Assembly (NCBI GenBank): GCA_031292625.1
Contig: JARLGU010000005.1
Location: 1 to 34,109 of the forward strand
DNA: 34,109 bases
Origin: Capsulimonadaceae bacterium
Lineage (GTDB): Bacteria; Armatimonadota; Armatimonadia; Armatimonadales; Capsulimonadaceae
Reading direction: 5' to 3'
Both the position numbers and the translations under genes were made by a program. Below, one piece after another: positions 1,658-3,516 of this stretch. The notes below the pieces were generated by a model, which was not told where the DNA came from, ran no database searches, and worked only from the letters and a program-made list of their open reading frames with translations. Within the stretch, counting starts at the first letter, position 1, and every line of letters starts with the position of its first letter.

Positions 1658-1687
1658 TTGACATTTCGCATGACGCATGCGTATACT
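1658..1687 (+). promoter_or_regulatory. glnA promoter
   Basis: TTGACA (1658-1663, perfect) and TATACT (1682-1687) are 18 nt apart. Transcription would start near 1694, giving a leader of about 175 nt before glnA. Confidence 0.75.
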
Positions 1688-1707
1688 AGATATTAGAGCT
1701 TGCCTCA

Positions 1708-1784
1708 AGGAACACCGACGTTCTTAAGCGCGGCCGCTGAGTCCGGGTAACACCGGACAAGAGCCTGCTTAGGAACGTTTTTTT
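1708..1784 (+). promoter_or_regulatory. glnA leader with candidate terminator/antiterminator switch
   Basis: Two exclusive foldings are visible. In the first, AGGAAC (1708-1713) pairs with GTTCTT (1720-1725) around the loop ACCGAC. In the second, CGTTCTTAAGC (1719-1729) pairs over 11 bp (one G-U) with GCTTAGGAACG (1767-1777), followed at once by seven Ts (1778-1784), as in an intrinsic terminator. Both use GTTCTT, so they compete. A third hairpin (GTCCGG 1741-1746 with CCGGAC 1753-1758, loop GTAACA) sits inside the terminator helix. The first loop has the A1/G4 pattern of ANTAR-target hexaloops but the inner loop does not. It does not match the glutamine riboswitch consensus I recall. The function is inferred from structure and position. 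Confidence 0.6.
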
Positions 1785-1868
1785 GCGTTCGAGCGCTCCC
1801 AGCTTCGCGTCTTATTCACAAACCAAAACCACGATCGCTTCTTAAACTCAAAGGAGACACCAACCCTA

Positions 1869-3311: not shown

Positions 3312-3346
3312 AAAGGCCCGCCGCTGCAAAGCGACGGGCCTTTGTT
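3312..3346 (+). terminator. Intrinsic terminator of glnA
   Basis: AAAGGCCCG (3312-3320) pairs with CGGGCCTTT (3335-3343), extended inside by CGCT/AGCG, and ends in a T-rich stretch. The string ACGGGCCTTT is repeated once at 3354-3363. Confidence 0.8.
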
Positions 3347-3388: not shown

Positions 3389-3418
3389 TTGACTTTACAA
3401 GTTCTTCTGAGCTAAAAT
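3389..3418 (+). promoter_or_regulatory. glnN promoter
   Basis: TTGACT (3389-3394) and TAAAAT (3413-3418) are spaced by 18 nt, the same spacing as the glnA promoter. The predicted start near 3425 gives a leader of about 195 nt. Confidence 0.7.
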
Positions 3419-3422
3419 CTCA

Positions 3423-3516
3423 CCAACCCCGACGCTGATGTTGGAACCCGGCTTAGACGCCACGCGCAACTCATGAACGGCAACTGTATGCCTTCATCGA
3501 ATGCGCGGGGCTTTTT
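3423..3516 (+). promoter_or_regulatory. glnN leader with candidate attenuator
   Basis: GCCACGCGCA (3459-3468) pairs with TGCGCGGGGC (3502-3511) with one A-G mismatch. Inside it ATGAA (3473-3477) pairs with TTCAT (3493-3497), and GGC (3479-3481) with GCC (3490-3492). TTTTT (3512-3516) follows directly. This is a terminator-like structure about 105 nt before the glnN start codon. Upstream, CCAAC/GTTGG (3423-3427/3440-3444) and GGC-TTAGAC-GCC (3450-3461) could form competing hairpins, but the first lies at the predicted transcription start. Its control role is inference. Confidence 0.5.

Follow-up and report, generated by a model that had tools for sequence, protein, structure and literature searches.

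The leader of glnA, the type I glutamine synthetase gene, in the 34,109-nucleotide stretch of Capsulimonadaceae DNA analysed here (the window), is likely an ANTAR-type transcription attenuator that would be released by the sole REC-ANTAR regulator of the genome, with the type III glutamine synthetase (GSIII) gene switched alongside. A small hairpin carrying one hexaloop and an intrinsic terminator exclude each other in this leader, and the design is kept in the family. The sequence-only reading had proposed a new nitrogen-responsive RNA class; the comparison points instead to an ANTAR-type element, apparently reduced to one hexaloop.

Two exclusive hairpins upstream of glnA

The arms of the small hairpin, AGGAAC (1708-1713) and GTTCTT (1720-1725), form six pairs including one G-U, and the hexaloop ACCGAC (1714-1719) between them has A at position 1 (A1) and G at position 4 (G4) and is closed by AC/GU pairs. 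The outer helix of the terminator is formed by CGTTCTTAAGC (1719-1729) and GCTTAGGAACG (1767-1777), with 11 pairs, one of them G-U. GTTCTT is common to both structures and AGGAAC is present again at 1771-1776, in the 3' strand of the terminator, so the two hairpins are mutually exclusive. The promoter, described as strong in the sequence-only reading, the small hairpin, the 11-bp helix and the T7 run all lie exactly where that reading had placed them. Its account of two foldings competing for GTTCTT, with AGGAAC repeated in the 3' strand, also agrees with stepwise minimum free energy folds of the lengthening chain, in which the small hairpin forms first and is lost to the terminator by about 1775. 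The RNA of 1690-1800 folds better than 200 of 200 dinucleotide shuffles (z -4.06), and the terminator hairpin is predicted at about -33 to -35 kcal/mol, the small hairpin at about -4 kcal/mol. A simple terminator scanner overlooked the terminator solely because it allowed loops of at most 8 nt.

Table 1 Features of the two glutamine synthetase genes and their leaders in the window
Feature	Position	Strand	Basis
glnA promoter, sigma-70 type, TTGACA (1658-1663)-18 nt-TATACT (1682-1687)	1658..1687	+	11/12 consensus match; direct reading
Small antiterminator hairpin AGGAAC-ACCGAC-GTTCTT, proposed ANTAR site	1708..1725	+	Sequence, conservation, pair counts
glnA intrinsic terminator hairpin, inner helix 1741-1746/1753-1758	1719..1777	+	Sequence, folding, family leaders
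U7 tract of the glnA terminator	1778..1784	+	Sequence; T6-T7 in all five element-bearing family leaders
glnA, type I glutamine synthetase, 474 aa	1869..3293	+	Pfam PF00120/PF03951; TIGR00653 above cut-off
GSIII promoter-like sequence TTGACT-18-TAAAAT	3389..3418	+	Sequence
GSIII leader hairpin P1, CCGAC-GCTGAT-GTTGG, G4, closing AC/GU	3429..3444	+	Sequence; counterparts L127, L128, L130
GSIII leader hairpin P2, GGC-TTAGAC-GCC, G4, 3' arm within terminator	3450..3461	+	Counterparts L127, L128, L130
GSIII leader terminator, 3459-3468/3502-3511, then T5	3459..3516	+	Sequence
Type III glutamine synthetase gene, 726 aa	3621..5801	+	Pfam PF12437, PF18318, PF00120

In the proposed mechanism, transcription would start about 10-20 nt upstream of 1708. 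By default, the small hairpin would form and then yield to the far stabler terminator with its U7 tract, and since the terminator displaces the small hairpin, most transcripts would end near 1778-1785. The sole REC-ANTAR regulator, activated probably by phosphorylation and possibly via the genome's lone HisKA_2 kinase, would contact the hexaloop through G4 and stabilise the small hairpin. The hairpin held in this way would withhold GTTCTT from the terminator, leading to read-through into glnA. The signal for switching is presumably nitrogen status.

Conservation of the design in the family and the phylum

The promoter, the G4 hexaloop hairpin and the overlapping terminator are kept in five of six glnA leaders of the family (Capsulimonadaceae, Armatimonadota; L002-L005 and L007), in line with the attenuator of two exclusive hairpins proposed at the outset, and TTGACA/TATACT stands upstream of the element also in L003, L004, L005 and L007. 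The genome of the sixth leader (L006, genome G003) holds an ANTAR gene, yet its glnA leader is without the hexaloop-terminator design. The hexaloop reads ACCGAC in three of the five leaders, ATAGAT in another and ACAGAC in the remaining one, with positions 1, 4 and 5 invariant, and the stems vary in a paired fashion (GGAAC/GTTCC versus GAAAC/GTTTC). This design is not due to chance: a G4 hexaloop hairpin with a 3' arm that doubles as the terminator 5' arm occurs in 10 of 1500 shuffled leaders versus five of six real ones. Single G4 hexaloop-terminator overlaps do arise by chance in the genome, with six other matches in 800 kb, and the identification of a single site thus rests on conservation. 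In none of the five family leaders with the element does the segment between promoter and hexaloop contain another G4 hexaloop hairpin with at least three pairs.

Ninety glnA leaders were read across the phylum. Where the leaders of families f24, f9 and f28 have a terminator, a hairpin lies about 10-25 nt upstream of it, mostly of the form AC-NNNGNN-GT, with diverse loops (ATCGTG, ATCGTT, ATTGAC, GCTGAT, ACCGAA, AAGGAT, GTTGAG, AGTGTC, AGTGTT, GCAGAT and others). In several of them a second hexaloop overlaps the terminator (GAAC-GAAGAC-GTTC in L033; AGC-ACAGAC-GCT in L036 and L108). The f5 leaders carry AGGC-GAGGTA-GCCT plus a second hairpin, GAGG-GACGCT-CCTC, within the terminator arm. When the top-ranking hexaloop hairpin close to the terminator was chosen with the loop sequence unconstrained, G occupied position 4 in 25 of the 30 terminator-bearing glnA leaders of the element-bearing families. 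With near-identical f5 genomes counted once, the count was 18 of 23 (binomial about 2e-6 versus 0.3, relatedness ignored). Position 4 is kept as G in most of these loops while positions 2, 3 and 6 are variable.

Covariation among the glnA leaders of relatives, which the sequence-only reading had named as one test of its proposal, was found. Across 21 aligned phylum hairpins, 94% of cells pair and two-sided changes occur at all five pairs. The covariation is 0.88; it is 0.25 after shuffling, and slid controls reach no more than 0.23. The set was partly picked for pairing and G4, and the unconstrained 25/30 count is therefore the fairer test of G4. None of eight ANTAR-lacking genomes carries the element in the sampled glnA leaders. 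Many ANTAR-bearing genomes of the phylum have no terminator in the glnA leader, so the presence-absence correlation between element and ANTAR protein is weak and clade-bound. A phylum-wide DNA pattern search with gap settings that were too tight did not recover the known sites.

Two further leaders 5' of glnA were observed. L024 (G055), from a distant family, has two G4 hexaloops (GGGGC-AAGGGA-GCCCT and ACCCC-AAGGGT-GGGGT) and a terminator. L255 (G200) has AGAAC-AATGGAC-GTTCT, a hairpin that overlaps the terminator and has seven bases in its loop, and is perhaps an independent single-hairpin version.

The GSIII leader and the regulator

The GSIII gene begins 330 bases downstream of glnA. The inverted repeat AAAGGCCCGCCGCTGCAAAGCGACGGGCCTTT at 3312-3343, 3' of glnA, is a likely terminator, so the two genes are probably separate transcription units. 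A tmRNA gene lies elsewhere in the window, at 138-535 on the minus strand (Rfam RF00023, 171 bits). The leader of GSIII, absent from the sequence-only reading, has two stem-loops separated by a 5-nt linker, the second overlapping the terminator, and is the window's better example of a canonical ANTAR-type leader. Its loops, GCTGAT in P1 and TTAGAC in P2, both have G4, and A1 is missing from both, unlike in the glnA loop. The P1/P2 loops of homologous GSIII leaders are AATGCT/TAAGAA (L127), ATCGTT/TCTGCA (L128) and AACGTG/AATGAC (L130); A1 is thus seen in P1 of homologues (ATCGTT, AATGCT), and the second hexaloop overlaps the terminator in L127, L128, L130 and L131. Because GSIII has its own dual-hexaloop leader, both glutamine synthetases would switch together.

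The genome (65 contigs, 5.77 Mb assembly) encodes a single ANTAR protein, a REC-ANTAR response regulator of 191 aa. Its nearest solved structure is PDB 1s8n (putative antiterminator, 210 bits), which we take to be PdtaR, followed by EutV. The genome has a single HisKA_2 kinase (L281:208-2085), soluble and with the architecture GAF-GAF-HisKA_2-HATPase. ANTAR regulators often have kinases of the GAF-containing HisKA_2 type, which makes this kinase a plausible partner of the regulator. Its GAF domains match those of PtsP and NifA best, and it is possibly the sensor of a nitrogen signal. The arrangement resembles PdtaS-PdtaR of Mycobacterium tuberculosis in the 1s8n-like regulator and the soluble GAF-containing HisKA_2 kinase; it differs in that the kinase and regulator genes are not neighbours in the window genome, where the pairing is a plausible one. 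EutV contacts the hexaloop through R142, K149, E160, Y164 and M172 (PMC8934654). By alignment, the regulator has R, K, E, F and M at these positions, that is, four of the contacts are kept and Tyr164 is replaced by Phe.

An ANTAR gene lies at most about 3 kb from an ammonium transporter gene in six related genomes (G002, G006, G014, G015, G017 and G018). In G002 (L166:2913-6995), the genes for a REC-ANTAR regulator, a beta-barrel porin (BBP2) and an ammonium transporter stand in a row. A search for ANTAR elements at 27 ammonium transporter loci gave none bar one weak match. A terminator-like G4 hexaloop hairpin, GGCAG-GGTGAC-CTGCT, was observed at L175:13095-13140, just before the Shine-Dalgarno sequence of the second amt gene of the window genome, with no counterpart in family relatives. 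For further targets, 0.8 Mb of the genome's 5.8 Mb was searched. The match at L191:2768 was rejected as an element of gltB: it directly follows a tRNA-like gene, precedes the gltB promoter, and is most likely the terminator of the tRNA-like gene.

Alternative explanations and known systems

The sequence-only reading had left a riboswitch or a protein-controlled antiterminator as options, and the comparison favours the second, of ANTAR type. Glutamine riboswitches (the glnA RNA and downstream-peptide RNA of Rfam) are likewise found upstream of nitrogen-assimilation genes, whereas the window leader matches no Rfam family at gathering or up to E 5; the earlier judgement that the motif is not the glutamine riboswitch is therefore upheld. 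An attenuator worked by some other factor (another RNA-binding protein, a riboswitch ligand, or RNA polymerase pausing/NusA kinetics), with a coincidental likeness to ANTAR targets, would suit the shortness of the element and the family glnA form without a second hexaloop, and regulator binding to the glnA leader is deduced from sequence. We regard it as unlikely in view of the G4 preference, which appears without selection while loop positions 2, 3 and 6 vary, the dual-hexaloop homologues found upstream of glnA in other families and upstream of GSIII in the window itself, and the lack of a conserved aptamer-like core or any Rfam match.

Still less probable is a constitutive partial terminator that sets the glnA transcript level or frees a short leader RNA, with the small hairpin as a folding intermediate. 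The terminator is about 30 kcal/mol stabler, so the unaided small hairpin should lose, as this explanation requires; an A1/G4 hexaloop with compensatory stem changes upstream of the terminator 5' arm is unexpected for a pure terminator. Ribosome-coupled attenuation by a leader peptide, as in amino-acid operons, could draw on a TTG-start frame of 16 codons at 1700-1750 that spans the hairpin. This frame has neither a Shine-Dalgarno sequence nor a stretch of Gln or Glu codons, its start is only a few bases from the predicted transcript start, and no similar frame was noticed in an unsystematic reading of the other four family leaders, which leaves this explanation scarcely credible.

The ANTAR-type attenuator can be compared with known systems. 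The dual-hexaloop layout of ANTAR targets goes back to the definition given in Ramesh et al. 2012 (PMC3369931); the second hexaloop in canonical targets is the terminator-overlapping hairpin itself, and EutV antitermination in Enterococcus faecalis requires both hexaloops in vivo (PMC3369931). Walshe et al. 2022 defined one hexaloop as the minimal ANTAR site and left the role of single hexaloops as a question (PMC8934654). The EutV/eutP, NasR/nasF and AmiR/amiE attenuators share with the window a G4 hexaloop (at glnA also A1) and a REC-ANTAR regulator, and the window leaders match the closing AC/GU pairs and G4 of the EutV target (PMC3369931, PMC8934654). A hairpin 3' arm doubles as the 5' arm of the intrinsic terminator in both. 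The GSIII leader further shares the two hairpins and the 5-nt linker, and differs in its loops, which are without A1. The glnA leader differs in having one hexaloop, to which the regulator would bind and which starts about 10-20 nt downstream of the predicted start of transcription.

The glnA leader thus resembles an ANTAR target in its working, yet falls outside the original two-hairpin definition, which GSIII fits save for A1. It is without two stem-loops joined by a short linker; its hexaloop stem overlaps the terminator through the common GTTCTT, as in five family leaders, it has the one hexaloop of the minimal site (PMC8934654), and its loop has A1 and G4 (ACCGAC; ACCGAC, ATAGAT and ACAGAC in relatives). 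The sequence-only reading had recognised A1 and G4 in the first loop correctly, while its discounting of ANTAR over the inner terminator loop GTAACA did not hold, since the second ANTAR loop is not located there. As candidates for a second hexaloop, GTAACA was rejected for lacking G4, and AGC-GCGGCC-GCT (1727-1738) for not being conserved.

Glutamine synthetase genes are already known to be under ANTAR control in two cases, both described in citing articles. The ANTAR protein NitR of Clostridium saccharobutylicum induces a glnA/GOGAT cluster by antitermination at nitrogen limitation (Stutz 2007, as cited in PMC6316151); by that description, the regulator class at glutamine synthetase genes is alike, while NitR belongs to another phylum and an antisense RNA is also used there. 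ANTAR leaders beside glutamine synthetase and glutamate synthase genes are reported from Actinobacteria, Bacteroidetes, Firmicutes and Proteobacteria (Ramesh 2012, as cited in PMC3369936), with the same regulator class and pathway; Armatimonadota is not among the phyla named in that citation. New here are Armatimonadota as a phylum and the glnA form, in which a lone hexaloop overlaps the terminator and a conserved first hairpin is missing; no description of ANTAR attenuators in Armatimonadota or of this form was found in the open-access literature.

Through these comparisons, nitrogen assimilation in Armatimonadota is given a regulator class, where the open-access papers searched gave no earlier assignment. 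More tentatively, with chances that we place slightly short of even, a single terminator-overlapping hexaloop may suffice as an ANTAR antiterminator in vivo in Capsulimonadaceae-type bacteria; it would have arisen when an ancestral dual-hexaloop leader lost its first hairpin, with GSIII keeping the dual form under the same sole regulator. One genome appears to hold single and dual hexaloop forms under one regulator, which offers a natural test of the ANTAR question, that is, a single hexaloop as the minimal site (Walshe et al. 2022) versus the two required by E. faecalis genetics. If this is true, the glnA and GSIII leaders would be a natural pair for probing the role of the first hairpin.
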